DNA of 38,745 nt from a virus. Of the stretch, positions 1 through 38,745 are shown piece by piece. Location: positions 1 through 38,745 of the IMG/VR virus record IMGVR_UViG_3300020428_000032. One strand, written 5' to 3'. How positions within the stretch are numbered: the stretch's first letter is position 1; every line of letters begins with the position of its first letter. The notes under the pieces were generated by a model. The model searched no databases. It saw only the letters and a list, made by a program, of their open reading frames with translations, and was not told the origin of the DNA. The position numbers and the translations under genes were made by a program.

Positions 1-34
1 ATACTATTATAAACTACTCTGTTAACTTTGTCAA

Positions 35-26800: not shown

Positions 26801-27378
26801 ACGGTAGTTCATTATCAGAACCAAGTAAAGGACAAAATTTACCAGGTATTTTGTTTATAGGTAATGAACGTATTGAATATTTTGTTAAAGAAGGAAACAC
26901 GTTAAAACAATTACGTAGAGGAACTTTAGGCACTGGAGTAAAAGACACGTATCCAGTTACACAAAAAGTTTATGATCAAAATATAAGTAAGACAGTACCC
27001 TATAGAGATATGACACAAAGTCAAAGCTTTAATGGAAATGGAACAACGTCTACATTTACATTAGGGTTCGACGTAGGTACAATAAATGAAATAGAAGTGT
27101 TTGTTGCAGGAAAACGTTTAAGAAAAACAACTTTAGAGTCATTTAGTTTAACAAAGGACCTTGATAGTCCAGAAGGTGATGTAACTTTACCAAAAGAATT
27201 TGAATTCGATCAAGACTCAAATTCAATTACATTAGCTGATATACCTTTAGATAAAACCAAGGTTACAGTAGTTAAAAAGACTGGTCAAACATGGACAAAT
27301 GCAGGAGAAAAACTAGGAGACGCTGAAAATTCGATAGCACGATTCTTGCGAGCAGGAACTTCGGCGCTACCAGAATAA
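11887..27378 (+). CDS. giant 5163-aa baseplate/tail structural protein (gp7 position)
   Basis: A single uninterrupted frame of 15.5 kb. The N-terminus (residues 1-150: VDFLPKFFRTEANRKFLQGT, then YIGDFTEERENYQLEP and IDWDKFVNFREYYWLPNG) looks like the conserved head of very large structural proteins in marine T4-like phages, and it would anchor the protein in the baseplate. Visible modules follow. Residues about 175-335 are cupredoxin-like. Residues about 745-1000 hold beta units such as SIAVYLNGIQLTHNKDYTF. Five short 'Y..G..V' modules lie near 1584, 1842, 2355, 2970 and 3023. Seven FG-GAP-like blades lie between 2259 and 3360. 'GSGYT' repeats lie at about 3749-3812 and 4115-4180. From about 4550 to the end are repeated 'VFV.VNG' beta modules. 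No signal peptide or coiled coil stands out. Following gp6 with a 1-nt overlap it takes the place of T4 gp7 (1032 aa). No separate gp8-gp11 genes are visible, so it may also replace outer wedge parts; that is inference. Confidence 0.75.
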   Translation: MAYDKFQNESPLPAGKQVKKLSVDFLPKFFRTEANRKFLQGTMDQLIAPGVAEKLSGYIGRKTAKAYSPKDNYIGDFTEERENYQLEPAAVIKDNLDNVTFYKDYNDYINQLGVFGSNNKNHSRLNNQDTYAWNPNIDWDKFVNFREYYWLPNGPTSVAVRGQSKEVVSTYTVTLKDNTDNISYIFNDGLTSNPTIKLYKGQTYRFEIDTPGHPIAFSISRTFTPGSAVLTAGSEGLRGDGQFDGTLYGNNYDQGEYVVLPSSGSVTFEADENISTLYPTGITKYGEAGEVISVVYVDKGTIEFTVPENAPDRLYYISKNNIDTSGLIKIYDIAENSAINVTDEIIGKKNYTSANGVTLSNGMKLTFQGEVTPTKYDDSQWYVEGVGSQIKLINSKDLIIPAAYTESKLIPFDTDKFDELPFADAKAYATNKDYITVNRGSNDRNAWSRYNCWYHKDVILASETYNSLPTSLDETARAKRPIVEFEAGLKLNNFGVFAKDDVDLVDVFTKDVFSTIEGSSGYNIDGIDLAEGMRILFIADTDILVSGKIYKVKFITVNSKRQISLMEVADSIPQNLETVLVTQGEKYAGTSFHYNSTKWVQSQQKTANNQHPMFEVFDANANSFSDTTYYGSTTFIGSKIFSYKQGTGTNDSELGFPLSYRAITNSGDIVFNFDLLNDEFTYQTETEIFTQKIDAGYLKKYKSLTDFSYVNGFSSIPTSTRQMVIKQYDVTDIFNNNFEISAYKNAGNLNDLTAYVYVDDNLKFINTDYVIDRTNGFAKVIFNKNLTAGQYVTIKTNSLAEKIDGYYEFPHNLERNPLNEDITEFTLGETIDHVNSMIEDVQDFAGVFPGRSNLRDTGELDHFGKRFVKHSGPINLPLYHITNKNFNIVKALKYSKNEYSRFKRNFLDKAEKLGFDGPVKKHVDKILTELNKEKVKTEPFYFSDMLAYGDANKLEYTVLDTRTTTYPITDPFNLTSLSAKSIAVYLNGIQLTHNKDYTFNTDGYIEITCTKFVDDIIEIYEYESTDGSFVPATPTKTGLYPKYYPELTIDDSFIAKKPTGTGPFKVYGRTEQTTKSFKGKIGWFYPLYTSKEAAIAADSDSSNDTGSAHMHVFEGLSQVFYMPDTQMNHATNDDATIDEYPVGVAMIRGHDGSYVKAYKDYRDELLLDFERRIFNNIKVEYSTDLLDIHDFIGGEYRASEFTKNEVDSSLLSDFIQWLRSVNDDYTAHDFHDVNNSFTFNYSSAKTTQGNDLPGFWRGAYLHAYGTDRPNATPWEMLGFTMKPIWWEDTYGKAPYSGDNLVLWRDIEEGRIKKPGVAEVLSAKYARPGLTRHIPVDSQGRLKSPLDSGFAESFLSRQSTNGFKFGDVAPVENAWRRSSEFPFAALTAYLLNKPAKVMGLGFDVSRTKKNLVKQWVYSDTNKPIRIAEAKLPNTYKDDTRVLTCGLVNYIYNLVSSDVLTLYTDYKNNLLNLKNQIGFKIGGFSDTQKFNLILDSRSPTQQVDRDGVFVPQESFKIFTNTSSPLELAVYSGVAIEKAANGFIVRGYNNTSSSFEYYKPITGSSSINVTVGGISEETVNFRSNTPYAKGVVVQDNFDFYRVTKDFTSGEVFDTENLVKLVDLPIVGGKTAAFKQDFDLTTVHKLEYGKRLANSQEVIDFILGYNARLQEIGFSFNEVNQNTETVENWDNSCREFLFWTTQGWSSGTIITLSPAAEQVQFTKGFSVVDNLNDNFYDYSIFKADGQPLANEFYSFNRDGNSFALEAKNTDSGIYHVSLPLVQKEHVVLLENKTSFSDIIYEPKSGYRQDRIKVSGYRSDDWNGGLNLPGFIYDEANITDWTQWKDYKIGELVKYKQFYYVANTNIPGSKDFNSTFWYQLSKKPEPELRANLDYKAAQFTDFYDLDSDGFDNEQQKLAQHLIGYQKRQYLANIINDDISQFKFYRGYIADKGTMNALTKLFESLGDGTTSALDFYEEWAIQTGRYGATESVQQVEFNLQEDQFTEAPQPFELVNTLPETNFENVYRILPKDVYDKPLEYDHAPFPTKVISEKDEYIKTGGNVSEDDVQFVVGSISELSLGDVNTVSLGDYLWVTENDRDTWQVYQLIQTSARVTDATRRTDIVSTDGLTLIDLTLDRWADTIGDSVAPLVKTTDLVGVRGADEFNLTGIYAVNDEGINLNKVTVKTQASTPITDFTGQSFSLVKLRPVRVESLDLLNKSRYEVLEKQKVWVDSLDGDWGVIENNPVFKENQTMFNPSQFDSTSQQFGKVFTATQDNTSVFIGAPGDANGRIHYFRRTNEKNNLVLDNTLELESSEDLLDPSTAEFAKSISVSPDGEFLVVGMPGASNVKTKFKGEFDKAVTYAKGDIIKYRESLWKANREILPEISSQPFTTFDTYVNLAASADADSTTLQLLVAGDPGLSGNTTDHLLIRAPKDMYLGTSVGDTINLYWNTRSYAYPTLDNYVPFGGAITEITGNVITGSHIIQHKVDHILFVSTFVTLPTVGQVVTTTTGSATVCYVGTKADSAVVYLKDTNGIFSVSDELYIEEEIFVGFYTETSTYNTSTAVDGFWFINTGFQYSNAGTYYDTGRGLVYADVRLQSSARALNTYSNIQKAVGYIGAYVKNKNRASYITHLSYRGDPGGVEADQLSNKWIVRGDKEFTDTLTIGDTTEFRLYNLDNRVIDVVTPGFTYDIFNKQQTIVDLWDGYIDFTFDEFDFNGNVFEPVVGDIISDVQYPNDGQGGLAITTQTTSTAEVMFYRRNFNSVRVYVKALTGDWSKQNNIGKYSIQREANTTARGATDVARIMGTVADVENDIAVGTTTVGKLIVFEHSSQFNVSSNPEIIDEEYWFFNENTEQGISRLPNPPYSLNKDYKQVYHISAEATGTPGPGQEGAVAVFRRKPGGIYEKQYVFVSEHRKANRRFGKKVKIAQKGNYYTLAISSEGLGTRDDPGSIEFFRHGTKPTEQFQGSYQIRSYDPGDIVIFLDQYFICLKKTSADVQDITDTEYWENISWKYGKDPDYKGVWDNTYRYNKGSIVNYNNTLYKAKTNIADNAAWNATSWETLTDNIDYTGMLPNRTSNAFYGESIFDPIQNIDQFSQDFDLSADGDVLITTSKQVFTDSTRDIAVVVYRENGDKFQFSQKITNANTETGWGDKVALHPDGTRIAVSIPLLDQVKANQGAVIIYQQDTNGVFGTVVDQTLGITSPTQTLLPPQNEESEKYGYELNFGKDHLVVASLNGDQQIPTRFDTFEDLLPTTGVEGGSRYVLDINSTMKEVATTFDKSFTSFKNVKMDKGVVYVYETLGANLIQSETFTYPLTMTSFGEHLFTQDNHIYVGMPQQWGDDSTTIGDTRGAVVDFRKPSGDKAWKQIRRSVAPVDVDKIAGAFLYNKRNNQLITYVDFIDPVQGKVAGIAEQEIDYKVKYDPAFYNTGQLADNNVDPNRHWAEKYVGRVWWNINSARFAHAYQGTTNFQKNTWNTQIGDSAINIYEWVESPFLPETWDSLADTAPGLKRGISGVSLHGNTKYTTRLVYDQISKTFNNLYYFWVENKKTIPSVSHRSISLKNIAALVGDPAGQKYRYLSFLSKDKFMLTNCNDLIKNDDIVLNIKFTKDSIEKQRQNSHNQYQILTKGLETSVVNSDIEKKWFDSLVGFDLQQRAVPDTNVPVRSRYGVQNRPRQSMFVNRAEALKQTIERINVVCKQNLLADEYDLNELNKVEPLPTLLSGEYDHKVSTFEEISLISTSKITPAKLTPVVQNGKITNVIIDDTGRGYKFVPKLTLTGVGKDAEFEIEIDTLGKITSVKILNQGTGYDNNTRISVRRFTVLVEADSTVFNKWSMYGWNETEGVWFRRSIQDYDVTQFWSYIDWYEDGYNQFTEVDDIIDGSYLLTSLDNRIGEVVKITSVGTGGWLLLEKIADEDTEDYTVNYKTIGRQNGTVQFNDKLYDYSKNTVGFDNRSFDSYFYDNTPTTELRIIINAIKNNIFVGTLAIEYNELFFATIRYVLAEQAGADWVFKTSFVKAKHNLGPLYQDKTFNNNNLANYESYINEVKPYTTNVREFISNYSNIEPTNSTVSDFDLPPEYSKESKSIVPSKAQVIDGVIVSAPNSASVYPRKHWTENNGYQIKDIVISDPGSEYTYPPTIKFTSTVGSGATAKAYIAYGKITKIELTNAGSGYTVAPTVVIEGPQGETGTKAKATAILGNGVVRSPYIITKFDRVSGKVFYTALIENYYDTGTGIKTVYDLKWPMDLSSTKVKVYVGKDNDSLVEQLRSQYSYENIIDTTKSYTRQQGRVTFTTPPANNSVIKIEYYKPLSLLTAEDRINFAYNPTSEMYGKDLSQLMTGIDYGGVQVRSFEFDQASGWDSNGWYTDSWDTYDNTFEDQIFTSDGSTNAVILTSPLENGIMYNFYRNGIRIDDPNYDASTAITNPTAITNSIIGDGTTQVLDLEVMGVRLLDGDIFIVRKTTSDGSVLPDADSYDTALSGGDLAYKTATGIKSEDIIVDGDGFVTPTTSGGPEELVPGQVLDTVDIKVFTRDSNGQGQIYSQSYIMDSNTTYGLGVIPKTAPAIIVKVNNIILGDTEYTIDWNNNNVTIHTATPGAELNIIAMAQGVQKLLDFGQGVSVAGQSDYLTTVDWQKDTSVFVSVNGVATDVEIFNSEDSGAPIAKVGIRFKTPRAISGEKIHYSVFSDATKVNYSQVSKDSFTADGTTRAFDLATAPFYAKPNQHNIIVKVGNKILNPGYNIQHTVEDGNREYKIETYQQSVGANSASDVRVFVAGVEKFTPNEWRFDIANSQIVLSDETGLNGDTVEIFAITDGEYTITGNTVTLDTAPTENTKIEILQFSNHDLLGIERMNYDVVSRTLLLSEEVEQINDYARLTTGEIKLRKKAVDAQYVWVSVNGELLTPSVDYFVTDDQMKIQLVRTPNQNDVIDIIHFAEKVSTAKFAYRQFKDMLNRTHFKRLDKEATTLREPLNSYDLRIEVVDGSSLSEPSKGQNLPGILFIGNERIEYFVKEGNTLKQLRRGTLGTGVKDTYPVTQKVYDQNISKTVPYRDMTQSQSFNGNGTTSTFTLGFDVGTINEIEVFVAGKRLRKTTLESFSLTKDLDSPEGDVTLPKEFEFDQDSNSITLADIPLDKTKVTVVKKTGQTWTNAGEKLGDAENSIARFLRAGTSALPE

Positions 27379-27381
27379 ATA
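27375..27381 (+). promoter_or_regulatory. late promoter-like ATAAATA overlapping the giant gene's stop codon
   Basis: ATAAATA includes the TAA stop (27376-27378) of the giant gene and lies 16 nt before the ATG at 27398, with AGGAAA at 27388-27393 as ribosome binding site. A promoter here would let the fibre genes be expressed without reading through 15.5 kb. The motif is seen; its activity is inferred. Confidence 0.5.
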
Positions 27382-27397
27382 CAGTATAGGAAATACA

Positions 27398-28000
27398 ATG
27401 AGTGATAATATGCAAGATAAAAACGGAGTACTAGTTCAAGGTCATATAAAAATATTTGACCCAAAAACTGAGGAAATATTTGTAGATAAACGTAATGCGA
27501 TTCATTATGAAAATATGAGTATTGCGTTAGCTGAAAGTTTAAGTAACGCTGGAGCAGGATTTATATACGAAATGAGCTTCGGTAATGGCGGCACAAGTGT
27601 TGACCCAACTGGTATTATTACATATCTTACTCCTAACAGTACAGGTACAAACGCTGGTCTTTATAATCAGACGTATACAAAGGTTGTTGATGAAAAAAGT
27701 GTAAACAATACAGACTCAGCACGTAATAAAACCGAAATTAGACATGTAAGTGGTACAAACTATACAGATATTCTTGTAAGTTGTTTGTTAGATTACGGAG
27801 AGCCTAGCGGCCAAGATGCGTTTGATACTGCATCAAACACAGATAATTCTTATGTTTTTGACGAGTTAGGCCTTAGAAGTTATAGTGCTAGTGGAACAGG
27901 TAGACTTATTACGCATGTAATATTTCATCCAGTACAAAAATCATTGAACAGATTAATACAAATTGACTATACTGTTCGAGTACAGAGTTTAGCGGGATAA
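27398..28000 (+). CDS. conserved-type virion protein of unknown role, 200 aa
   Basis: A 200-residue protein without a family I can name. It opens with NGVLVQGHIKIFDPKTEEIF and KRNAIHYENMSIALAESLSN, a pattern I associate with small structural proteins of marine T4-like phages. A Gly-rich turn region (FGNGGTSVDPTG) follows, and residues 105-200 are beta-rich, closing with HVIFHPVQKSLNRLIQIDYT. The sequence does not resemble T4 gp8, although the gene lies where wedge proteins gp8-gp11 might be expected. It may be a connector between the giant baseplate protein and the fibres encoded next. Start codon choice is supported by AGGAAA, seven nt upstream. Confidence 0.65.
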   Translation: MSDNMQDKNGVLVQGHIKIFDPKTEEIFVDKRNAIHYENMSIALAESLSNAGAGFIYEMSFGNGGTSVDPTGIITYLTPNSTGTNAGLYNQTYTKVVDEKSVNNTDSARNKTEIRHVSGTNYTDILVSCLLDYGEPSGQDAFDTASNTDNSYVFDELGLRSYSASGTGRLITHVIFHPVQKSLNRLIQIDYTVRVQSLAG

Positions 28001-28011
28001 GGGGATAATAA

Positions 28012-30072
28012 ATGGCATATGCAATTAGTTACACTGACTCCGTAAACAAAGGAACTATTACAGTATCAGATAGCACACTTAATACAGAAACTAGTTTAAG
28101 TTTGCCTGGTAGATATACAACGGCATATGGACAAGCAATAAGTGAAAACTTTTTACATCTACTTGAAAATTTTGCAAGTAGTACAGCACCGCAACGCCCT
28201 GTCGAAGGGCAATTATGGTATGACACATCCACTGGCGTAGATCAGTTAAAATTATATGACGGAACTATCTGGCAAGCAGCTGCTGGACTTAAAAAAGCTA
28301 ATTCTGAACCAGCAGTAGCAAATAGTAGTGCAGGTGATTTATGGGTCAATACAGGTGCTCAACAGCTATATTTGTTTACAGGATCTACATGGATACTAGT
28401 TGGACCAGAATTTACTGACGGGTTACTTACAGGAACAAAATCAGAAGTACTTGTTGGCACAGATAATTTATCATATAGTGTACTGTCAATCAAAATACAA
28501 GATAAGACAGCATTTATAATTAGTGACAGAGCATTTACACCAAAAACTGCTATCGCAGGATTTACAACTGGTATCAACGCAGGAATGAATGTTAGTTCAG
28601 CTGCACTATTTGGAACTGAAACATTAAAGTATTATGGCACAGCAGAAAAAGCAGATGCACTAGTTGTCGGAACAACGACAGTACCTGCCGCAAATTTTGT
28701 TAGAACCGATCAAACTTCAATCTCAAATTTCGATTTAAAAATAAAAAACAATGACGGTATTATAATTGGCGCAGGCGGACAGCTTACTTTACAGGTTGAC
28801 GGCGAGCAAGGTGTTATACAACATAATACTAGCGGGTCTAACATAGATTTTAGATTACGTAGTGGTACATCTACCCCTACAGTAATGCGTATTGACGCTA
28901 GTGGAAAAGTAGGAATTAACAATTCGGCTCCAGAACAAGATCTTGATGTATCCGGCAACGCAAAAATTGGACCAAAATCAGGTGTTGCTGGTTCGGGATT
29001 TTTAAATATTACAAGTACAATAAACAGTACAAGTATTGGTACAGGATCACTTATTACAGCAGGCGGTGTTGGAATTGCACAAAATGCATGGATTGGCGGC
29101 GATGTTGACATTGGAGGCTTACTTCAAACAGGCAATGTAGTCCCAGATGCAAGTTCTAGTAGGAATATTGGTACAATATCAAACAAATATGACGGCATTT
29201 ATGCAAATACTTTTTATGGAAACATACAAGGTAATGTTAGTGGAACAGTAAGCGGCAGAGCAGGATCTGCAGATAAATTAGCAAGTGCTACAACATTTGC
29301 TGTGACAGGTGATGTATCTGCTGCAAGTTTTGAATTTGACGGATCAACTGGTGGCAGTACTAAGACGTTTAATATGTCTGTGTCAAATACATTTATTTCA
29401 AACAAAACTGTAACATACGATGCACTTAATTCGGATGAATTGTTACTTAATAGACCTACTGGCGATACTGGTGTATTTAGAATTACAAAAAATAATTTTT
29501 TAAAGACAGTACCTATAACTCCAGTTGGTACAATGGTAATGTACGGTGGCACAACTGCTCCTCTAGGATGGTTATTTTGTGATGGATCGGAAATTAGAAA
29601 ATCAGACTACAATGATTTATGGCTAGCAATTGGATTTAACTTTAAAGACTCGTCTTTAATACAAGATTCTGGTGTTAACTTTTTTGCAGTACCTGATATG
29701 CGAGGTAGATTTCCATTAGGATTAGACGCAATGGGCGGATCAAGTGCTAACAGAGTTACAGATGTTGCCGCAGATAGTATCGGAGGAACAGGCGGTACTC
29801 AAAATACTACGCTTAATGTTGAAAATTTACCAGAACATGAGCATGACATGGAAGGCGATAGTGGTACACAGTATTATGCAACTAGAGTTGGAACTGGAAC
29901 ACCAACAGATTCAGGAGCAATTCAGTTATCTATTACTTCAGGTACACAAGGTACACAAGGTTTAGCTTCAAGTGGTGGTATTAAAACAACAACTTCATTA
30001 GGAACACCAATGAATACTATTGATCCTTACTTAGCTGTTAACTATATTATCTATAGTGGAGTAACAACATGA
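28012..30072 (+). CDS. tail fibre 1 with C-terminal collar (gp12-like) domain
   Basis: A 686-residue fibre. Residues 1-140 are the N-terminal domain shared with the next two proteins (YGQAISENFLHLLENF, EGQLWYDTS, GDLWVNTGAQQLYLF), presumably the trimeric attachment end. Residues 230-500 are shaft-like, with turns such as IGTISNKYDGIYANTFYGN. Residues about 500-686 form a phage tail collar domain: PVGTMVMYGGTTAPLGWLFC, then VPDMRGRFPLGLD and LPEHEHD, ending DPYLAVNYIIY. His609 and His611 form an HxH motif; in T4 gp12 an HxH motif from each chain binds a metal at the trimer axis. The role as a receptor-binding short tail fibre is inferred from the collar domain. The ribosome binding site AAGGGG is at 27999-28004. 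The stop overlaps the next start (ATGA). Confidence 0.85.
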   Translation: MAYAISYTDSVNKGTITVSDSTLNTETSLSLPGRYTTAYGQAISENFLHLLENFASSTAPQRPVEGQLWYDTSTGVDQLKLYDGTIWQAAAGLKKANSEPAVANSSAGDLWVNTGAQQLYLFTGSTWILVGPEFTDGLLTGTKSEVLVGTDNLSYSVLSIKIQDKTAFIISDRAFTPKTAIAGFTTGINAGMNVSSAALFGTETLKYYGTAEKADALVVGTTTVPAANFVRTDQTSISNFDLKIKNNDGIIIGAGGQLTLQVDGEQGVIQHNTSGSNIDFRLRSGTSTPTVMRIDASGKVGINNSAPEQDLDVSGNAKIGPKSGVAGSGFLNITSTINSTSIGTGSLITAGGVGIAQNAWIGGDVDIGGLLQTGNVVPDASSSRNIGTISNKYDGIYANTFYGNIQGNVSGTVSGRAGSADKLASATTFAVTGDVSAASFEFDGSTGGSTKTFNMSVSNTFISNKTVTYDALNSDELLLNRPTGDTGVFRITKNNFLKTVPITPVGTMVMYGGTTAPLGWLFCDGSEIRKSDYNDLWLAIGFNFKDSSLIQDSGVNFFAVPDMRGRFPLGLDAMGGSSANRVTDVAADSIGGTGGTQNTTLNVENLPEHEHDMEGDSGTQYYATRVGTGTPTDSGAIQLSITSGTQGTQGLASSGGIKTTTSLGTPMNTIDPYLAVNYIIYSGVTT

Positions 30073-31934
30073 GTTATCAATTAAATAAAACCGACGGAAC
30101 ACTTCTAACAGCACTAATTGATGGTCAGATTGATACAGCTAGTACAAACTTAACACTAGTAGGTAAAAATTATACCGGATATGGTGAAAGTTTTAATGAA
30201 AATTTTATTAAACTTTTAGAAAATTTTAGTAATACAGCTGCACCTAGTACTCCTCTTACAGGACAACTATGGTGGGATACATCAGCAAGTAGATTAAAAG
30301 TTTATGATGGAACAGTATGGAAAGCCAGTGGCGGACCTTTCGTACAAAGCTCTACACCTACTATGGTTGCAGGCGATTTATGGATTAATAACTTAACTAA
30401 TCAAGTTTATGCTTTCGACGGCACTGATATAATATTAATTGGTCCACAATATTCTGTAGCACAACAGAAAAGTGGATTTGAAATTGGACAAATTTTAGAT
30501 AACACAAGTAAATCACAAACAGTAGCATACTTATATGTTGCTGGTGTTCTTAAAGCAGTTATCAGTGATGTACAATTTACTCCTGCATATGCAGAAAGGA
30601 TTATAGGTCTAGTAACAGCAAGTAATACAGATGGTGTTATATACGAAGGTTACAATTTAATTGACAAAGACAATTTTAAATGGCACGGTATTGCAAACAG
30701 TTCTTTAGGACTTACAGATGCCCTAGGTGTAACTAGAACAGCAGAGCAGTTTTTAGCATCTAATGCAAATGATGTTACAACTGGAGCATTAACTATTCAA
30801 AATTCGGGCGGTTTAACAATTGGCCTTTCACAAAATAATGTGCAAAAGGTTATAGGCGACAGGTTTTACATAGAAAACCAGTTGTTAGATCATGATTTAA
30901 GTTTGAGAGTACGTTCGAACCAATTTAACTCACTTATTGTTGATGCTGTATACATTGATGCAAGTGCATCAAGAGTTGGTATATTTACTACCAACAGATT
31001 ACCAGCATATACACTAGACGTCCAAGGCGACATTAGAGCTACAGGCAACTTAATTGTCGAAGGTACATCAACTACTATTGATACAGTAACATTGAGAGTT
31101 GAAGATAAAAATATTGAACTAGGATACCAATCAGATAGTACAGGCGGTAATGATGTTGGTGCAGAAGGTGGAGGCGTTACGCTACTTTCAACTGATTCTG
31201 ACAAAACTATAAAATGGTTAGGAGCAACAGATGCTTGGACATTTAATAAGAATGTCGACTTATCTGATACAACAAAAACAATTAAAATAGGTGGCGTTGA
31301 CAAGCTAACAAATACTAGTTTGTCTAACATATTATATGCTGACGAATTAACAAGGGTAGGAACACTAGTTAGTCTACAAGTTGATTCGATCAATATAGAT
31401 GGTAATACAATTAGTAATAGTGCAAGTGCTATTAATATAACGGCAAACAGTGGAATGAATATTACACCAGGCGGTAATATACAAATTACTGGAAACCATC
31501 AAATTAAAGGTGTCAAAGATCCTACAGATTCTCAAGATGCATCTACTAAGATTTATACAGACACTGAAATTGCAAACGAAGTTATTGTTATGGGCTTTGA
31601 TATCACAGGATTAGGAACTGGATCTGCACTACAAGTTGCAGTCGCAGGATACTTGAATGATCTATATCCTGCAGCAGCTATTAATAATGGCAAGCAAGCA
31701 AAGTTACATTGCACTTCATATGCTAATGCTACAGCAAGTGGTATTGATGTTAACTCAGCTAAAACTATAAGTTATGTAGCTGTTGATGCAAATGGAACAT
31801 TAAATCAATCAGTAGTGCAAGACGTTGTATTTGCTGGTGCGAGTGGTAATGTGTCATTGTCTGCAACACGTAGTTTAATGAGATATCAATCCAACGGATC
31901 TGGATGGGAGTGGCAGTCTACTACAGCGTATTAA
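30069..31934 (+). CDS. tail fibre 2, paralogous N-terminus
   Basis: A 621-residue fibre. Residues 1-140 match the N-terminal domain of fibres 1 and 3 (YGESFNENFIKLLENF, TGQLWWDTSASRLKVYDGT, GDLWINNLTNQVYAFDG). The middle carries shaft repeats, including NLIVEGTSTTIDTVTLRVED followed by KNIELG, a motif common in phage fibre shafts. The C-terminal 110 residues (from about GSALQVAVAGYLNDLYPAAA) end in YQSNGSGWEWQSTTAY and have no collar domain, so the receptor-facing end differs from fibre 1. The ATGA overlap and the ribosome binding site GGAG (30058-30061) imply coupled translation with fibre 1. Receptor binding is inferred from domain organisation. Confidence 0.8.
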   Translation: MSYQLNKTDGTLLTALIDGQIDTASTNLTLVGKNYTGYGESFNENFIKLLENFSNTAAPSTPLTGQLWWDTSASRLKVYDGTVWKASGGPFVQSSTPTMVAGDLWINNLTNQVYAFDGTDIILIGPQYSVAQQKSGFEIGQILDNTSKSQTVAYLYVAGVLKAVISDVQFTPAYAERIIGLVTASNTDGVIYEGYNLIDKDNFKWHGIANSSLGLTDALGVTRTAEQFLASNANDVTTGALTIQNSGGLTIGLSQNNVQKVIGDRFYIENQLLDHDLSLRVRSNQFNSLIVDAVYIDASASRVGIFTTNRLPAYTLDVQGDIRATGNLIVEGTSTTIDTVTLRVEDKNIELGYQSDSTGGNDVGAEGGGVTLLSTDSDKTIKWLGATDAWTFNKNVDLSDTTKTIKIGGVDKLTNTSLSNILYADELTRVGTLVSLQVDSINIDGNTISNSASAINITANSGMNITPGGNIQITGNHQIKGVKDPTDSQDASTKIYTDTEIANEVIVMGFDITGLGTGSALQVAVAGYLNDLYPAAAINNGKQAKLHCTSYANATASGIDVNSAKTISYVAVDANGTLNQSVVQDVVFAGASGNVSLSATRSLMRYQSNGSGWEWQSTTAY

Positions 31935-31950
31935 ACAGTCATGAGAAACG

Positions 31951-31957
31951 ATAAATA
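31951..31957 (+). promoter_or_regulatory. late promoter-like GATAAATA upstream of fibre 3
   Basis: ATAAATA preceded by G lies in the 55-bp gap between fibres 2 and 3, with the ribosome binding site TTAGGGG at 31975-31981 and the ATG at 31990. Spacing suits a leader of about 25 nt. The sequence is seen; promoter activity is inferred from its match to the T4-type late box and from recurrence in other gaps. Confidence 0.55.
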
Positions 31958-31989
31958 ACATAAGTACAGTACTATTAGGGGTTACATAA

Positions 31990-33462
31990 ATGGCATATCA
32001 AATTGATAGATTTAATAATACAACTTTAACAAATGTTGAAGATGGCACTGTTGACCAAACTACCGATTTAAAGTTTATTGGTAAGAATTATGCAGGTTAC
32101 GGTGAAATACAAAATGAAAACTTTCTGTTTTTGTTAGAAAATTTTAGTGGAGCAACAGCACCAGCTAGACCGTTAAGCGGTCAAATTTGGTACGATACAT
32201 CAGTTGCAAAATTAAAATTTTATGATGGAACAAAATGGAGAACAAATGGAGGCTCAGAAGCGTCAGCTACACAGCCAACAGGATTATCAGTAGGAGATTT
32301 TTGGTGGGATACTACTAACGATCAACTATACGTTTATAACGGAACAATTTTTATATTAATTGGACCACAGAACGCAGGCGATGGCGTAACCCAAATGCAG
32401 AGCCTAGAAGTTTTAGATAGTAACGGTACTACAAGAAATATAATTGCAGGAACACTTAATAGTGAAACTGTAATGATTATTAGTGCAGTAGAATTTGATA
32501 TAGCCACAAGTAATGCAATTACAGGATTTGACAGACTTAAAAAAGGTATTACACTAGTTAATACTAAACTTGCAAGTAATGGTATAACTACTCCAACAGG
32601 ACATTATTTTTGGGGTACAGCTTCAGATAGTTTAAGACTTGGAGGAGATTTAGCGTCTGCATATATTAAAGAAGCCGCAACCGGCAATACAATTTTTACA
32701 ACCACTGTAGAATTTCCTGATAGCGGAATACAAATTGGTAATTCTCAAGATTTACAACTCCTTATTGAAAGCGGTTCAGAAGGCGTAATTCAAAATATTA
32801 CAGGTAATAATAGTAAAATAAAAATTAAAACAACAAACGGAGCTGGTACAAATACACATTCAGTTACGTTTGATTCATCGGGAATTTTACCATCTGTAGA
32901 TAATACATTTACACTTGGTACTGCATCAAATAAATTTTCAAATGTACATGCTACAGCATTTACAGGAGAAGCATCACAAGCTACTGCACTAAGAGTCGGT
33001 ACAGACTTTAGAACAGCAAGTTCTAGTGCTTCAAATAATACAGTAGCAGTAAGAGATGCAACAGGAAATATAGCAGCTAACTTATTTCAAGGAACTGCTA
33101 CCCAAGCTAGATATGCTGACTTAGCAGAAATTTATCGCACAGACGAAATTCACCCAGTTGGTACAGCAATTGCAGTTGGTGGAGAAGATGAAGTGAGAGC
33201 AGCAAGCATTGGCGATCATTGTATTGGTGTTATATCTGATAATCCTGCTTACTTGATGAATTCAGACGCCGAAGGACAAGCAGTTGGCTTAAAAGGTAGG
33301 GTTCCTGTTAGGGTTAATGGTCCTGTATCAAAAGGACAAGCAGTGTTTGCTTGGAAAGATGGAGTATGCAGCACAATAACAACTAATGCACTCGTCGGCG
33401 TAGCACTTGAAACAAGTACTGAAGAAGGTGAAAAATTAGTAGAATGTGTGCTAAAGGTTTAA
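31990..33462 (+). CDS. tail fibre 3, paralogous N-terminus with distinct C-terminal domain
   Basis: A 490-residue fibre. Residues 1-130 repeat the shared N-terminal domain (YGEIQNENFLFLLENF, GQIWYDTSVAKLKFYDGT, GDFWWDTTNDQLYVYNG). Residues 295-345 contain the shaft turn FTLGTASNKFSNVHATAF, which resembles that of fibre 1. Residues about 372-490 form a separate C-terminal domain: ARYADLAEIYRTDEIHPVGT, GVISDNPAYLMNS, KGRVPVRVNGPVSKGQAV and a final LVECVLKV. This type of ending is common on marine phage fibres and recalls, loosely, G2-type intramolecular-chaperone domains, but I cannot show a protease site. The different end suggests a different ligand or a trimerisation aid. Confidence is high for 'fibre' and low for the function of the C-terminus. 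Confidence 0.78.
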   Translation: MAYQIDRFNNTTLTNVEDGTVDQTTDLKFIGKNYAGYGEIQNENFLFLLENFSGATAPARPLSGQIWYDTSVAKLKFYDGTKWRTNGGSEASATQPTGLSVGDFWWDTTNDQLYVYNGTIFILIGPQNAGDGVTQMQSLEVLDSNGTTRNIIAGTLNSETVMIISAVEFDIATSNAITGFDRLKKGITLVNTKLASNGITTPTGHYFWGTASDSLRLGGDLASAYIKEAATGNTIFTTTVEFPDSGIQIGNSQDLQLLIESGSEGVIQNITGNNSKIKIKTTNGAGTNTHSVTFDSSGILPSVDNTFTLGTASNKFSNVHATAFTGEASQATALRVGTDFRTASSSASNNTVAVRDATGNIAANLFQGTATQARYADLAEIYRTDEIHPVGTAIAVGGEDEVRAASIGDHCIGVISDNPAYLMNSDAEGQAVGLKGRVPVRVNGPVSKGQAVFAWKDGVCSTITTNALVGVALETSTEEGEKLVECVLKV

Positions 33463-33474
33463 GGATTTTAACTC

Positions 33475-35589
33475 ATGGCAGATATTACCGCGGCGCGATT
33501 AAACAACTTACAGTCTAGAATCGCACTCATTTTAGGAACAGGATCTGGAACAAGCGGATATGGCCAAACCGTTGTAAGCTCTCAAGTCAACAACACAAGT
33601 GATATAATTGATGCCGATGATATAAACAATATCTACACAGACATGGTTAAAACTAGGATACACCAAGTAGGACCGGGCGAAACTGGCATTAGACAAGTTC
33701 TTGAAAATTTAAATGTTATTGCTGAAGATACTAGTAATCAAATTAATGATGCAGGCACCCTTGCTGCAGATGCTGAAGGCACGTTAAAAGGTATTGCAGA
33801 TTTTGAAACACTAATGACTCAAATTGAAGCAGACAAATTGTTACTTCATGCAAGTCAAAGTGCATTAGAGCCAAAAATTACAAGCACACGTTCGTCAACT
33901 TGGAACGGATTAATTTATCATCAATTTACAGCTACATTTACAAGCGAAGATGAAAGACGTCATTTTTTTAATGCTGGCGGTGAAGTTAGAATATCGGCTA
34001 ACAACACAGGTGCAAGCACACCTAAAGGTTTAGATTGGGCTGCATTATGTAATGAAGTAGGAACTATAAAATTTGCTTCAACTATTACTAGTGCGACCGG
34101 AACAGGACAAGGATATGCAGTAGGTAATAATACACTTACATCCACATATCAAACATGTTTTCTAAAAACAGGCTCAGGATCATATAGCGGAGTGTATGCA
34201 GGTAATTTATTTACAGTAAAAGTAAGAATTGCTAATCCACAAGTAATTGATTTTAGAATAGAATTTAATGATGTTGTTACTGATAACCAAGTTGACAATA
34301 ATGTAGACGGTGCGTTAACTAGCACAGTGCAACAGCTAAGAGCAGTAGGAGCAAATAGTATTACTTCTGTAAGTCCTACATACTTTACTTCAACACAGCT
34401 ATCAGGATTTAGTGTACCACAAGATACAACTACACCAACATATGCACTATCAGCAAATGCAACATCTATGAACGAAGGTGGAAATGCTACTATTTTCTTA
34501 ACAACTACAAATGTAGGAGATACAACAGCAGTGCCATACACTATTACTGGAATATCTATAAACGATCTAGTAAATGGCAGTTTAACTGGAAGCTTTATTG
34601 TACAGAACAATGGTGCTAGTTTGACACTTAACTTAAATGCAGATAATTTAACAGAAGGTGCAGAAGCACTTACACTTTCTCTCAACAACGGTGCTGCAAC
34701 AATATCTGTTACTATAAATGATAATAGCACAGGAGCAGTTAGTTATGTTTATGATCCACAATGGTACAATGAATTTAGTAGTTCGTTCCTAGCAAATATT
34801 CCAAAATCAACAGCCGTTAATGAAGCTACACAAATTGCTGATTTACTATACAAAGGTACAGGAGCATATACAAATACTTTAGGACAAGTTAGATATGCCC
34901 TAAACAGAAGACCAGATGCAGCAGGACTAGCATACTGGACAGGACAATGGTACAATACCTACAGATCAGGATCTTTTGCTAATATTACACAAGATCAGTT
35001 GTGGGACAACTTCTATAGGGTATTCTTTACTAGTGTTGATGCATCAACAAATCCAATACAGTTTACAGTAGACGGAGTTGCATTATCTGGATCAGCTAAT
35101 ACTGATTCTGCAAGATCTTTGTTGCCATCAAAGAACAATATACAAGGTGACGGAGTAGGTGATTTTGGTGATAGAGGTTCACTCACAGGAAATCAGCAAC
35201 AACCAAGTCCACCAAGTGATACATTTGCATTTACAGTAACTCCAGCAACAGGAATGAACTTTAATGTAGCAGAGGAGCAGGGAGTAGTTAATTTTAGTTA
35301 TACAATTACTTGTACAGCAGGAACAGGAAGTGTTACTGTACAAGAACTTACACGACCAAGTAATATTCCAGTTAGAGTAGACGATAGTTATAGCCCAGGA
35401 TATCCAGGTCAAACAACCAGTGCAATAGCATCTAAAAATACAGGTACAATGACTGCAGGAAGTACAAGACAACTTCAACTAGGAATTTATCCAGGCGCTA
35501 AAGGCACTTGGACAGGAACATTTGTATTCTTAGAGTCTACAGGCGTAGGACAAAATATTCAAAGGGGTTGGGGCGGCACATTCACTTAG
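33475..35589 (+). CDS. multidomain adhesin-like virion protein with Calx-beta-, DUF4214- and Ig-like modules
   Basis: A 704-residue protein. Residues 1-305 form a domain shared with the next gene (ARLNNLQSRIALILG, FTSEDERRHFFNAGGEVRIS, KGLDWAALCNEVG). Residues about 318-412 look like a Calx-beta-type module: an early MNEGGNATIFLTTTNVGDT and a late LTEGAEALTLSLNNG followed by TINDN, a pattern that binds calcium in many adhesins. Residues about 450-520 (VRYALNRRPDAAGLAYWTGQW, ITQDQLWDNFYRVFF) resemble DUF4214, found in surface proteins. Residues about 575-704 are an Ig-like beta domain. The ribosome binding site AAGGA (33461-33465) overlaps the previous stop. The product is probably a virion surface or fibre-associated adhesin; this is inferred from modules and neighbourhood. 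Attribution of the three modules is by eye and moderate. Confidence 0.7.
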   Translation: MADITAARLNNLQSRIALILGTGSGTSGYGQTVVSSQVNNTSDIIDADDINNIYTDMVKTRIHQVGPGETGIRQVLENLNVIAEDTSNQINDAGTLAADAEGTLKGIADFETLMTQIEADKLLLHASQSALEPKITSTRSSTWNGLIYHQFTATFTSEDERRHFFNAGGEVRISANNTGASTPKGLDWAALCNEVGTIKFASTITSATGTGQGYAVGNNTLTSTYQTCFLKTGSGSYSGVYAGNLFTVKVRIANPQVIDFRIEFNDVVTDNQVDNNVDGALTSTVQQLRAVGANSITSVSPTYFTSTQLSGFSVPQDTTTPTYALSANATSMNEGGNATIFLTTTNVGDTTAVPYTITGISINDLVNGSLTGSFIVQNNGASLTLNLNADNLTEGAEALTLSLNNGAATISVTINDNSTGAVSYVYDPQWYNEFSSSFLANIPKSTAVNEATQIADLLYKGTGAYTNTLGQVRYALNRRPDAAGLAYWTGQWYNTYRSGSFANITQDQLWDNFYRVFFTSVDASTNPIQFTVDGVALSGSANTDSARSLLPSKNNIQGDGVGDFGDRGSLTGNQQQPSPPSDTFAFTVTPATGMNFNVAEEQGVVNFSYTITCTAGTGSVTVQELTRPSNIPVRVDDSYSPGYPGQTTSAIASKNTGTMTAGSTRQLQLGIYPGAKGTWTGTFVFLESTGVGQNIQRGWGGTFT

Positions 35590-35611
35590 AAAATGCTCTG
35601 GTTATCATTCG

Positions 35612-35618
35612 ATAAATA
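35612..35618 (+). promoter_or_regulatory. late promoter-like GATAAATA upstream of the second adhesin-like gene
   Basis: ATAAATA preceded by G lies in a 47-bp gap, with AGAGAGG at 35623-35629 as ribosome binding site and ATG at 35637. The upstream 5-bp TTATC (35602-35606) pairs with GATAA (35611-35615), as in the gap before gp6. A leader would be only about 12 nt, which is short. The role is inferred. Confidence 0.5.
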
Positions 35619-35636
35619 TACTAGAGAGGTCGTTTA

Positions 35637-36578
35637 ATGCCAACAACAATACTAGCATCACGTTTTAACAACTTAAAAGTTCGAGTTGATAAAATACTCG
35701 GACCATGTCTTGAAACAAATCCGAATAATGCGTCAACTTATCTTTTCGGTTATGGCCAGTCTCTTGGCGCCGGAGTGAATCAATCAAGTAGTAATGATAC
35801 TATTGATGCCCTTGCATACAAACTTCTTTATATTAATATACAAAAAATAAGATATCATCAGGTCGGAACTGCGGCATTTTCAGCAGAAGCATACAAAGTT
35901 GGAGACTTTGTTACTAACGCTAGTGCAGATAAAGTTGAAGAGGCATATATTAACGGACTTGAAACACTTGCCACCAACATGGAAAATGATAAGTTTTTAC
36001 TACATTCTACACAAGCAGATTTAACATTTCAAGGAGACTCAACCAGTGCTCCTACTTGGAACGGTTCATTGAGTCATATTTTTACTGTAACATTTACTTC
36101 TGCACAAGAAAGACGAGAGTTTTTTAATGCAGGAGGATTGATTAGAATTATTCCTGGAATGACATATACAGGAACACAAGCAAAAACACTTGATTGGAAA
36201 GCTATGTTAAACGCTATTGGTCCAGTAAATTATGGTTGCCAGAGCACCATAGCACCTAGTGGCGTAGGACAGTCGTATGGTGGTATTGGACATGATTTCA
36301 TGACTAGTAGTTATCAAAGAGGATATTACAATATGGGTGGCGGAGTATACAATCCTAACGAATACACAATATTTATTATGGAATTAAGCGATACTGTGCT
36401 ACAGTTTAAATGCGAATTTAACGATCCAGCCTACGGAAATCCAGACGAAAGTGTTGTAGCAAGAGCAGTAAATACAGTACAATTTTATACTCCAAATGGT
36501 ACAGCCCAGATAGATGGTACATCTACTATAACTGTACAAAAAACTGCACCTACTTACAGCCTAATCTCAAACTTATAA
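35637..36578 (+). CDS. short paralogue of the preceding adhesin-like protein
   Basis: A 313-residue protein that aligns by eye along its whole length with residues 1-320 of the preceding protein: SRFNNLKVRVDKILG, KIRYHQVG, FTSAQERREFFNAGGLIRI, KTLDWKAMLNAIG, and a closing FKCEFNDPAYG. Its last residues, APTYSLISNL, correspond to TPTYALSANA at the start of the partner's Calx-beta-like module, so it stops just where the extra modules begin. It may be a compact virion protein sharing the same attachment fold, or a shortened copy. The domain's function is not known to me. A consensus sigma-70 promoter starts two bases after its stop codon. Confidence 0.75.
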   Translation: MPTTILASRFNNLKVRVDKILGPCLETNPNNASTYLFGYGQSLGAGVNQSSSNDTIDALAYKLLYINIQKIRYHQVGTAAFSAEAYKVGDFVTNASADKVEEAYINGLETLATNMENDKFLLHSTQADLTFQGDSTSAPTWNGSLSHIFTVTFTSAQERREFFNAGGLIRIIPGMTYTGTQAKTLDWKAMLNAIGPVNYGCQSTIAPSGVGQSYGGIGHDFMTSSYQRGYYNMGGGVYNPNEYTIFIMELSDTVLQFKCEFNDPAYGNPDESVVARAVNTVQFYTPNGTAQIDGTSTITVQKTAPTYSLISNL

Positions 36579-36580
36579 GG

Positions 36581-36609
36581 TTGACATACCATTAAGATAA
36601 TGCTATAAT
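36581..36609 (+). promoter_or_regulatory. perfect consensus sigma-70 promoter
   Basis: TTGACA at 36581-36586 and TATAAT at 36604-36609 are both exact consensus hexamers separated by an exact 17-bp spacer, and the -10 is preceded by TGC, an extended -10 element. Transcription should begin near 36616 and produce a leader of about 64 nt to the ATG at 36680. It is unlike the ATAAATA boxes elsewhere in the window. Host-polymerase recognition is established knowledge for such sites; timing is inferred. Confidence 0.9.
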
Positions 36610-36617
36610 AGCATTAT
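36597..36617 (+). repeat. 21-bp palindrome over the -10 box (candidate operator)
   Basis: ATAATGCTA (36597-36605) and TAGCATTAT (36609-36617) are perfect inverted repeats around a TAA centre, enclosing the TATAAT hexamer and reaching the predicted transcription start. No T-tract follows, so it is not a convincing terminator. Its placement is what a repressor operator would show, although some symmetry is expected around TATAAT. Binding of any protein is inference. Confidence 0.55.
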
Positions 36618-36622
36618 ATCCA

Positions 36623-36649
36623 GTCTTCTCCGATTAGTGTGAGCAAGAC
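36623..36649 (+). other. possible leader hairpin upstream of the glycosyltransferase cassette
   Basis: In the predicted transcript leader, GTCTT-CTC (36623-36630) can pair with GAG-AAGAC (36641-36649), with one bulged C at 36644 and a 10-nt loop. It lies upstream of the AGGAGA ribosome binding site at 36669-36674. It could be a leader structure, or chance pairing. I do not recognise a riboswitch or small RNA family. Confidence 0.3.
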
Positions 36650-36679
36650 GAATATATACTACTATTATAGGAGAATTGC

Positions 36680-37036
36680 ATGGACGAAAGACTGTCAAAA
36701 GCATTAGATTTTTCAAATTATATGGTTACCCTTAATAATCAAAAAAGGTTATTAGCTGAAAAATACCAAGAAAATCTACTCCATTTTTACAATGGATGTC
36801 AGTTTACTGCTTCAAAAGAACTAATTAATTTTGTAAAATTGCTTCTTGATAATCATCAAGACGACATTGCAGTATTAACTGACGATAACGGCATACCTAC
36901 TATTGTTGAGGATGTTGAAAAATTTTATAATGAAATTACAAACGTTTACTTTTCGGCATCAAACTCTTATCATACAGAATATATGAAATTAAAAAATCAA
37001 AGAAGTATCGAGAAGCTAGTAGATTATGAAAAGTAA
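36680..37036 (+). CDS. small conserved-type hypothetical protein, 118 aa
   Basis: A 118-residue, mostly helical and charged protein. The start MDERLSKALDFSNYMVTLNN followed by QKRLLAEKY recalls a small protein I associate with T4-like marine phages, where its function is unknown; this recall is not verified. Residues 45-75 (ELINFVKLLLDNHQDDIAVL) and 80-118 are helix-forming with no membrane segment or cysteine pair. It is the first gene after the sigma-70 promoter, with a strong ribosome binding site AGGAGA at 36669-36674, and it overlaps the next gene by 11 nt. It could be a partner or regulator of the two glycosyltransferase-like proteins, or a structural accessory; neither can be shown. 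Confidence 0.75.
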   Translation: MDERLSKALDFSNYMVTLNNQKRLLAEKYQENLLHFYNGCQFTASKELINFVKLLLDNHQDDIAVLTDDNGIPTIVEDVEKFYNEITNVYFSASNSYHTEYMKLKNQRSIEKLVDYEK

Positions 37037-37880
37037 AGGTGCATTTTTAATTGCAAGGAATAATGCACAAATTGATTATGTAAAACAAGCAGTATTTCTA
37101 GCAAAACGTATAAAAAAGTATTTAGACATACCAACTACTGTACTAACTGATTCTGTTGACTATTTAAAATCTTCTTTTGATGAAACTGTATTTGATAGGA
37201 TTGTTCCTCTAGACTACAACCCGCAAAAAAACGAAAGAGTTTATTTTGACGGTGCAATGTATCAAAAACAGTCAACATTTAATAATAGATCAAGATGTCA
37301 AGTATATGACTTAACACCATATGATGAAACTTTGCTTTTAGATACAGACTATATTATATCTAATGATTTATTAAAAAACTGTTTTGAATCACAAGATGAT
37401 TTTTTAATTTACAAAGATTCTACTGATATTGCACAAGTTAGAAACGAGCAAGAATTTAAATATATAAGTGATACAGGCGTTCCGTTTTATTGGGCTACTT
37501 GTGTGTTTTTTAGAAAATGTAGGACTAACGAAATTTATTTTAATCTATTACAGCATATTGAAGACGAATGGGACCATTATAGAAGAGTTTACCAAATTAC
37601 TTCAAGCTTGTTCAGAAATGATTTTGCATTTAGTATTGCTATTCATATAATGAATGGATTTGCTAGTGGACCTTTTGCAAAAGAAATGCCCGGTAAAATG
37701 ATGTATACTACAGACAAAGATGTTTTAGAAAATCTTAAAGAAGATGAAATGATGTTTTTAGTAGAAAAGAAAGATTATCTAGGAGAATATACGGCATTAC
37801 ATACAAAAGGACAAACAATACATGTAATGAATAAATTTAGTCTAAATAGAATTATAGATAAAGAGATAGCTAATGGATAG
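37026..37880 (+). CDS. glycosyltransferase-like protein A (DxD motif)
   Basis: A 284-residue protein with a GT-A-type pattern. Residues 6-45 resemble a Rossmann-like nucleotide-sugar-binding start (GAFLIARNNAQIDYVKQAVF, then DIPTTVLTD). LLLDTDYII places a DxD motif at Asp106-Thr107-Asp108, the usual metal/UDP-sugar ligand. A later acidic/aromatic region (HIEDEWDHYRRVY) and VMNKFSLNRIID complete a length typical of small GT-A enzymes. It shares architecture with the following gene, suggesting tandem duplication and divergence. The start overlaps the previous gene by 11 nt and the stop overlaps the next by 8 nt, so the three genes are translationally coupled. Sugar and acceptor are unknown; virion protein or host-surface glycan modification are possibilities. 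No signal peptide or membrane segment is seen. Confidence 0.65.
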   Translation: MKSKGAFLIARNNAQIDYVKQAVFLAKRIKKYLDIPTTVLTDSVDYLKSSFDETVFDRIVPLDYNPQKNERVYFDGAMYQKQSTFNNRSRCQVYDLTPYDETLLLDTDYIISNDLLKNCFESQDDFLIYKDSTDIAQVRNEQEFKYISDTGVPFYWATCVFFRKCRTNEIYFNLLQHIEDEWDHYRRVYQITSSLFRNDFAFSIAIHIMNGFASGPFAKEMPGKMMYTTDKDVLENLKEDEMMFLVEKKDYLGEYTALHTKGQTIHVMNKFSLNRIIDKEIANG

Positions 37881-38712
37881 AGGTATTTTAGTTATAGCCC
37901 AAAATTTACCTAATGTAAATTATGTTCAGCAAGCAGAATTACTGGCAATGAGTTTGAAAGCTACTAATCCAGATACAAAGATTAGTCTTGTAACAAACGA
38001 TGAAGTAGAGTTTGAAAACTTATTTGATAAAATTATTTCTATTCCTTGGAATGATGATGCCGAAAGTTCCGACTGGAAAATACAAAATAGATGGAAATTA
38101 TATCATGCTAGTCCTTACAATAAAACAATTGTTATGGATACAGATATGATAGTACTACAAGACATATCAGAGTGGTGGAATTTTTTAGAAAAGTATAAAT
38201 TATTTTTTACAAACAAAGTTTATACATATAGAGGTGATACAGCAAATACTAGTTATTATAGAAAAGTTTTTGAAGTCAATAAATTACCAAATTTATATGC
38301 AGGATTCCATTACTTTGAAAAATCACAAGAAGCACAAGAGTTTTATCATTGGTTAGAACTAGTAATGCAAAACTGGCAAGCATTTTACGAAGTCTTTTTA
38401 GAAGGAGTTACAAGACCTAAGCATATTAGTGTTGATGTGTGTGCATCTATTGTGTCTTTAATATTAGGCAACTCATCAGAAATTACTAATGATCTAGTTA
38501 ATTTTCCTAGCTTTACTCATATGAAAAAGAATTGTCAAGGGTGGACAGATGGTTCTAGTAATTGGCAGGATAGAGTAGGTTTTTATATTGCAAGAGACTG
38601 TAGCATTAAAATAGGCAATTATGTTCAGTCAGGTATTTTACATTATACAGAAAAAGATTTCTTAGAAAAAACTCCTGTAATTGAACGCTATAGGAATTTA
38701 TTACATGTCTGA
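37873..38712 (+). CDS. glycosyltransferase-like protein B (DxD motif)
   Basis: A 279-residue paralogue of the preceding protein, with the same layout: RGILVIAQNLPNVNYVQQAE, then DTKISLVTNDEVEFENLF, and IVMDTDMIVLQDI giving DxD at Asp89-Thr90-Asp91. ASPYNKT before the motif parallels TPYDET in protein A. A C-terminal HYTEKDFLEKTPVIERYRNL closes the domain. This resembles GT8-like small glycosyltransferases; the acceptor is not deducible. Differences from protein A around residues 110-190 (WWNFLEKYKLFF, PNLYAGFHYFEKS) may alter acceptor choice. Its stop overlaps the next start by 7 nt. The GT family is inferred from the DxD and fold pattern only. Confidence 0.65.
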   Translation: MDRGILVIAQNLPNVNYVQQAELLAMSLKATNPDTKISLVTNDEVEFENLFDKIISIPWNDDAESSDWKIQNRWKLYHASPYNKTIVMDTDMIVLQDISEWWNFLEKYKLFFTNKVYTYRGDTANTSYYRKVFEVNKLPNLYAGFHYFEKSQEAQEFYHWLELVMQNWQAFYEVFLEGVTRPKHISVDVCASIVSLILGNSSEITNDLVNFPSFTHMKKNCQGWTDGSSNWQDRVGFYIARDCSIKIGNYVQSGILHYTEKDFLEKTPVIERYRNLLHV

Positions 38713-38745
38713 TTTACACGATCTTATAAGTTTACTTAAAACAGA
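38706..38745 (+). CDS. start of a further gene, truncated by the window edge
   Basis: ATG at 38706 opens a frame that reads MSDLHDLISLLKT to the last base without a stop. It overlaps the preceding stop by 7 nt, as other genes in this cassette do, which supports a real start. Only 13 codons are visible, so no family can be given. Confidence 0.5.

Follow-up and report, generated by a model that had tools for sequence, protein, structure and literature searches.

A fibre-linked gene trio with two predicted GT-A-fold, GT8-like proteins behind a conserved sigma-70 type promoter in a lineage of large aquatic T4-superfamily phages

The window, the whole stretch of 38,745 nucleotides that was analysed, is the IMG/VR virus record IMGVR_UViG_3300020428_000032 (positions 1 to 38,745), and all coordinates given here are those of the window. 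Three genes at its right end, here called sm, gt1 and gt2, follow directly on fibre-type genes. The features needed below are:

6..34, - strand: second sigma-70 promoter with a 12/12 match, divergent, facing off the left end of the window
31951-31957: late-type box of the 490-aa tail-fibre gene, 5' of its start at 31990
31990..33462, + strand: 490-aa tail-fibre gene (PHROG tail fibre match)
35612-35618: late-type box of the 313-aa fibre-type gene, 5' of its start at 35637
35637..36578, + strand: 313-aa fibre-type structural protein directly 5' of the trio, homologue of the 704-aa neighbour at 33475
36581..36609, + strand: sigma-70 type promoter with a 12/12 match (TTGACA 36581-36586, 17-nt spacer, TATAAT 36604-36609)
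36620..36627, + strand: CCAGTCTT, partly conserved leader element (upstream alignment, single-sequence folds)
36655..36660, + strand: TATACT, probable relict -10 of the ancestral promoter position, the -35 of which is lost in the subclade of the window
36669..36673, + strand: AGGAG, ribosome-binding site of sm; AGGAG or a similar sequence stands here in most relatives
36680..37036, + strand: sm, 118 aa, conserved, first gene of the trio in all cases
37026..37880, + strand: gt1, 284 aa, predicted GT-A-fold glycosyltransferase (GT8-like), from predicted fold and motif counts
37873..38712, + strand: gt2, 279 aa, predicted GT-A-fold glycosyltransferase (GT8-like), paralogue of gt1, from predicted fold and glycogenin profile match
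38705..38745, + strand: start of a fourth gene (translation MSDLHDLISLLKT...), the reading frame of which leaves the window

As described in the initial annotation, the three genes overlap, sm and gt1 by 11 nt and gt1 and gt2 by 8 nt. That annotation listed the trio correctly and left out the fourth gene at 38705, which is homologous by place and by its start to a 444-aa gene of relatives; 74 of the 78 members of this family lie at that place. Further upstream, 3' of a gp6-like baseplate gene, the window holds a 5163-aa open frame (11887-27378) homologous to a 4449-aa virion structural protein of Agrobacterium phage Atu_ph07.

The genome-scale reference used here is PBPT01000016.1, a 335-kb contig labelled Neomarinimicrobiota, in which no terminal repeat was found and which carries the entire window in the same order. 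It holds homologues of T4-like gp41, gp43, gp44, gp46, gp47, uvsX and gp55. For the lineage, the baseplate wedge protein is closest to that of rhizobial jumbo phages (36%). The lineage is one of large uncultivated aquatic phages of the T4 superfamily, probably jumbo phages. The trio occurs on two contigs of one Neomarinimicrobiota MAG, PBPT01000016.1 (L248/L251-L267) and PBPT01000082.1 (L247); a T4-superfamily phage contig in this MAG probably represents either binning contamination or a hint at the host. A cyanophage identity was set aside as less likely, no psbA being found in 13 contigs, and the Moraphages (PMC12619734) were rejected by their description as a non-T4 clade with mostly Bacteroidota hosts.

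Scans of viral contigs returned hundreds of relatives for each of sm, gt1 and gt2. Comparison of gene order showed sm-gt1-gt2 intact and without duplication in 235 of 245 related loci, and the remaining 10 were cut by contig ends. These 245 loci were grouped into 89 clusters, in 88 of which the promoter was counted. An independent linkage test was anchored on the 490-aa fibre gene, which avoids the trio as query, and the full trio was present in 39 of the 40 fibre-anchored loci in which the contig continues for at least 6.5 kb past the fibre gene. The sole exception, L297, has a 1114-aa gene 3' of the fibre gene and no trio (L297 9585-14238). By gene order, sm-gt1-gt2 appears to be a core, fibre-linked module. 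Among cultured phages, tblastn found no homologue of gt1, gt2, sm or a distant gt1.

The perfect sigma-70 promoter that had been noted before the three genes is the sole 12/12 site in a half-window scan (19000-38745) and has a TG immediately 5' of the -10. The window as a whole has two perfect sites, where shuffled versions of it have 0.16 on average. The counterpart of the site at 6-34 in the 335-kb relative also matches at 12/12 and would drive the gene for a gp55-like late sigma factor, which is transcribed divergently from the structural run. Relatives have kept the -35/-10 consensus with 16-18 nt spacing before sm: a match of at least 10/12 was found in 73 of 88 independent clusters, and of at least 11/12 in 63 of 88, while at five gene positions on either side of the trio only 0-8 of 40-85 clusters reached 10/12. 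In an upstream alignment of 84 clusters, the subclade of the window has its promoter about 45 nt 5' of the position taken in other clusters, most of which show TTGACA-17-TATACT/TATAAT at the position of the relict -10. The 335-kb relative contains 65 strong sigma-70 sites against 11-22 in shuffles, and in its 59-kb minus-strand structural run the site before sm is the sole strong one just before a gene, two others being intragenic. The promoter at 36581-36609 is, on this conservation, almost certainly functional as a sigma-70 promoter. Between it and sm, CCAGTCTT can pair with AAGAC at 36645-36649 as a weak hairpin in single-sequence folds. An RNA element in the 5' leader was rejected, since the hairpin folds in some relatives only and an Rfam search gave no credible match. 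A CCAGTCT-like sequence was also seen 5' of the promoter in other clades.

The neighbouring transcription units carry a different signal. As had been claimed, these units have ATAAATA boxes, which stand before the starts at 8294, 27398, 31990 and 35637. The bare 7-mer is rarer than chance across the whole window (8 seen versus 27 expected), so the signal is carried by position, and in the 335-kb relative TAAATA occurs at most 60 nt 5' of a start in 92 cases versus 15 expected. Within 70 nt, TAAATA precedes the gene before the trio in 55 of 85 clusters and the gene three places before it in 47 of 73. The sequences thus support the view that the promoter of the trio and those of its structural neighbours are of different classes. 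The two classes are of the same consensus types as the early (sigma-70) and late (gp55, TATAAATA) promoters of T4, and the lineage likewise has a gp55-like gene. No match to T4 AsiA or MotA was returned, in searches in which the controls could not have matched either, so that their absence is not established. Neither the 335-kb contig nor any of five virus contigs has a member of the RNA polymerase beta-subunit family, and a phage-encoded RNA polymerase was therefore rejected. Together with the gp55-like gene, this absence fits the use of host polymerase; the initial annotation had suggested unmodified host polymerase as one possibility.

One clade departs from this pattern. In a tree of 80 trios, 66 rows have a sigma-70 promoter, and eight rows in which a TAAATA box replaces it form a single fully supported clade (L004, L005, L074, L080, L146, L152, L079 and L094); a ninth late-box row, L007, falls outside it. 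Relocation of the sigma-70 promoter to a nearby site was not seen on inspection of that clade. A promoter that is kept, moved and in one clade swapped points to selection on the expression of the trio.

The second and third genes had been described as tandem paralogues with DxD motifs, and this was borne out: gt1 and gt2 match each other in a local blastp with E 2e-10. In gt1 both aspartates of D106-T-D108, as well as H266, are present in 64 of 64 relatives, and in gt2 D89-T-D91 is nearly as constant (D89 and H257 in 66 of 66, D91 in 65 of 66). By analogy with GT8 enzymes, H266 of gt1 and H257 of gt2 could be the third metal ligand. AlphaFold models built from alignments of 64 (gt1) and 66 (gt2) relatives reached pLDDT values of 94.6 and 95.7, and Foldseek against the PDB gave glycogenin as the best match of both (E 1.3e-6 for gt1, 1.1e-8 for gt2; probability 1.00), with modest TM-scores of 0.34-0.55 to solved GT-A structures. 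On these models it is highly probable that both proteins have the GT-A fold, of which glycogenin is the nearest example, and they may act as sugar transferases.

Family searches supported the glycosyltransferase-like label in part. The gt2 profile matches glycogenin chains (E 5.4e-6), but no curated GT family was matched: Pfam contained no GT match for gt1 or gt2 at E<=1 and none for their relatives at E<=0.1, a Pfam search with one gt2 homologue added nothing, and gt1 has no sequence match to any known GT in Pfam and profile searches. The GT-A fold, the DxD and the invariant C-terminal His are thus shared with GT8 enzymes such as glycogenin, in contrast to the lack of such family matches. For this reason the proteins are named ‘GT8-like’ and are not filed under Pfam GT8. 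None of the three trio proteins could be usefully assigned from Pfam, PHROG or NCBIfam, and sm had no significant match in Pfam, PHROG or PDB. gt2 matches phrog_1903 (E 1e-5), a family without known function, and gt1 finds its best match in a viral structure library, with 43% identity, in an uncharacterised protein from an uncultured phage. By a simple composition test all three proteins lack TM-like windows and are negatively charged, and the basic amphipathic tail or TM segment of LPS/O-antigen glycosyltransferases was not seen in gt1 or gt2.

The trio heads a longer same-strand run that extends about 21 kb past it in the collinear 335-kb relative. The next conserved gene encodes a protein of 200-450 aa with a weak carbohydrate-binding match, followed among the conserved genes by a GT2-like protein (weak match) and twitch radical-SAM enzymes (NF033640, E 2e-90). 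In relatives the run also encodes a sugar-nucleotide epimerase, a UDP-sugar dehydrogenase, a 2OG oxygenase, a DegT-type aminotransferase and a fatty-acid desaturase. The content of the run varies between relatives, whereas sm-gt1-gt2 does not, and the genes past the trio could have a purpose of their own. Counting from sm, 25 genes of the 335-kb relative have hardly any site of either promoter class; in that relative a clear membrane region was found in the desaturase only, with one borderline window in one other protein. Apart from this desaturase, no membrane-bound enzyme was found in the run, nor a flippase or polymerase. The proposal of a cassette with its own promoter therefore holds as far as the promoter is conserved and of a distinct class, but the trio is only the head of a longer sugar/radical-SAM run, and one clade has a late-type box.

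That sugar-transferase and radical-SAM genes lie beside fibres is already known from pelagimyophages. These are likewise T4-like and aquatic, with fibres beside GT8 glycosyltransferases, radical-SAM cassettes and UDP-glucose dehydrogenase (PMC7029224), and the flanking of fibre genes by GT and sugar/radical-SAM genes at our locus is as in the pelagimyophage/cyanophage host-recognition island. The pelagimyophage island was described as hypervariable, and middle and late promoters could not be resolved there (PMC7029224); our locus differs from it in the fixed three-gene core and the conserved sigma-70 promoter. Among cultured phages, Sinorhizobium phage Phosso and Agrobacterium phage Atu_ph07 (470-490 kb) have structural genes collinear with the lineage, namely the baseplate wedge, the giant structural protein, a 200-aa protein and the fibre. 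They also have TAAATA late-type boxes before fibre genes and a radical-SAM run 3' of the fibre, directly so in these rhizobial jumbo phages (L345 25272-33015, L346 11909-18647). They differ in that no homologue of gt1, gt2 or sm was detected in the stretches read, and in that the best sigma-70 score before the radical-SAM run is only 7-8 of 12. The fixed trio, its conserved, moved and once replaced promoter and its protein families appear to be undescribed within what was searchable.

We tentatively propose that the locus is a separately transcribable glycosyltransferase run with a virion protein, above all the fibres, as acceptor. Host sigma-70 RNA polymerase would transcribe the trio-headed run independently of the gp55-dependent late programme, which would make the neighbouring baseplate and fibre proteins. 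We consider it likely that the trio is expressed before the fibres, and the enzymes could then be ready by the time the fibres appear late. gt1 and gt2 would be soluble, metal-dependent GT-A enzymes of the GT8 kind that use nucleotide-sugars, while the UDP-sugar dehydrogenase, epimerase, aminotransferase, twitch radical-SAM enzymes and GT2-like protein probably produce or modify unusual sugars. The most likely acceptor would be a protein of the virion, with the tail fibres, whose genes lie directly upstream, as the first candidate; sm might, as a guess, be a partner or acceptor. A more far-reaching version seems rather unlikely: that sm-gt1-gt2 is a new lineage-defining glycosylation system building a glycan on the tail fibres, with sm as dedicated partner or acceptor and with host-type transcription that lets the enzymes appear ahead of their late substrate and that one clade re-timed to late.

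The main competitor is remodelling of the host surface, in which early enzymes alter a surface polysaccharide (O-chain or similar) and so block superinfection by competing phages. This is a real possibility. A sigma-70 promoter suits early action, sugar-nucleotide and sugar-modifying enzymes lie 3' of the trio, and alteration of the host O-chain is the published reading of the pelagimyophage GT8 enzymes (PMC7029224), as a host-surface role is of the LPS genes of cyanophage-like marine jumbo phages (PMC9123017). However, the run lacks the flippase, polymerase and membrane-bound enzymes noted above. Since gt1 and gt2 are acidic and the run is nearly without TM segments, the enzymes are unlike membrane-docked LPS glycosyltransferases. 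Furthermore, the late-type box that would drive the trio in one clade is too late for exclusion and agrees better with a virion substrate that appears late than with an early one on the host surface, and the tight linkage to fibre genes would be left unexplained. Because of the late-box clade, the lack of membrane enzymes and the fixed fibre linkage, we slightly favour glycosylation of the virion or fibre, itself a tentative assignment, over that of the host surface.

The run could also form a radical-SAM/GT pathway for a small molecule, lipid or peptide in host takeover, with the sugar step as one part of it. Several radical-SAM enzymes, the desaturase, the 2OG oxygenase and the aminotransferase lie downstream, and the radical-SAM run of Phosso and Atu_ph07 occupies the same place, none of the three trio genes having been detected in what was read of these phages. 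Still, the downstream content varies while the trio is constant, so the role of the trio is probably separable, and we regard this explanation as improbable.

In T4 the enzymes that glycosylate DNA are expressed from early promoters. The T4 alpha-gt and beta-gt attach sugar to a modified base of the phage DNA as a protection from restriction (T4 annotation), and the same might be supposed for gt1 and gt2. It is very improbable: phmmer recovered other T4 replication genes in the 335-kb relative but, at E<=1e-3, no match to alpha-gt, beta-gt or the hydroxymethylase gp42, the structures of gt1 and gt2 match glycogenin and other GT-A enzymes and not the GT-B DNA glucosyltransferases, and the trio adjoins fibres, not replication genes. 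Lastly, the sigma-70 match might be an AT-rich motif that arose by chance, with transcription of the trio confined to the late unit. This would agree with late-type boxes in the same direction 5' of the trio and with the lack of a terminator-like site, none being found between 35637 and the trio, but is scarcely credible given a promoter retained in most clusters despite shifting sequence and spacing, its displacement with loss of the old -35 in the clade of the window, and the excess of strong sites in the 335-kb relative.

Sugar-transferase genes of phages are usually described as variable extras, whereas here they form a fixed core in nearly all tested members of a widespread aquatic lineage. 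This makes the target of such genes a testable question, through the timing of expression, the sugars of the virion and the sugars of the host surface.
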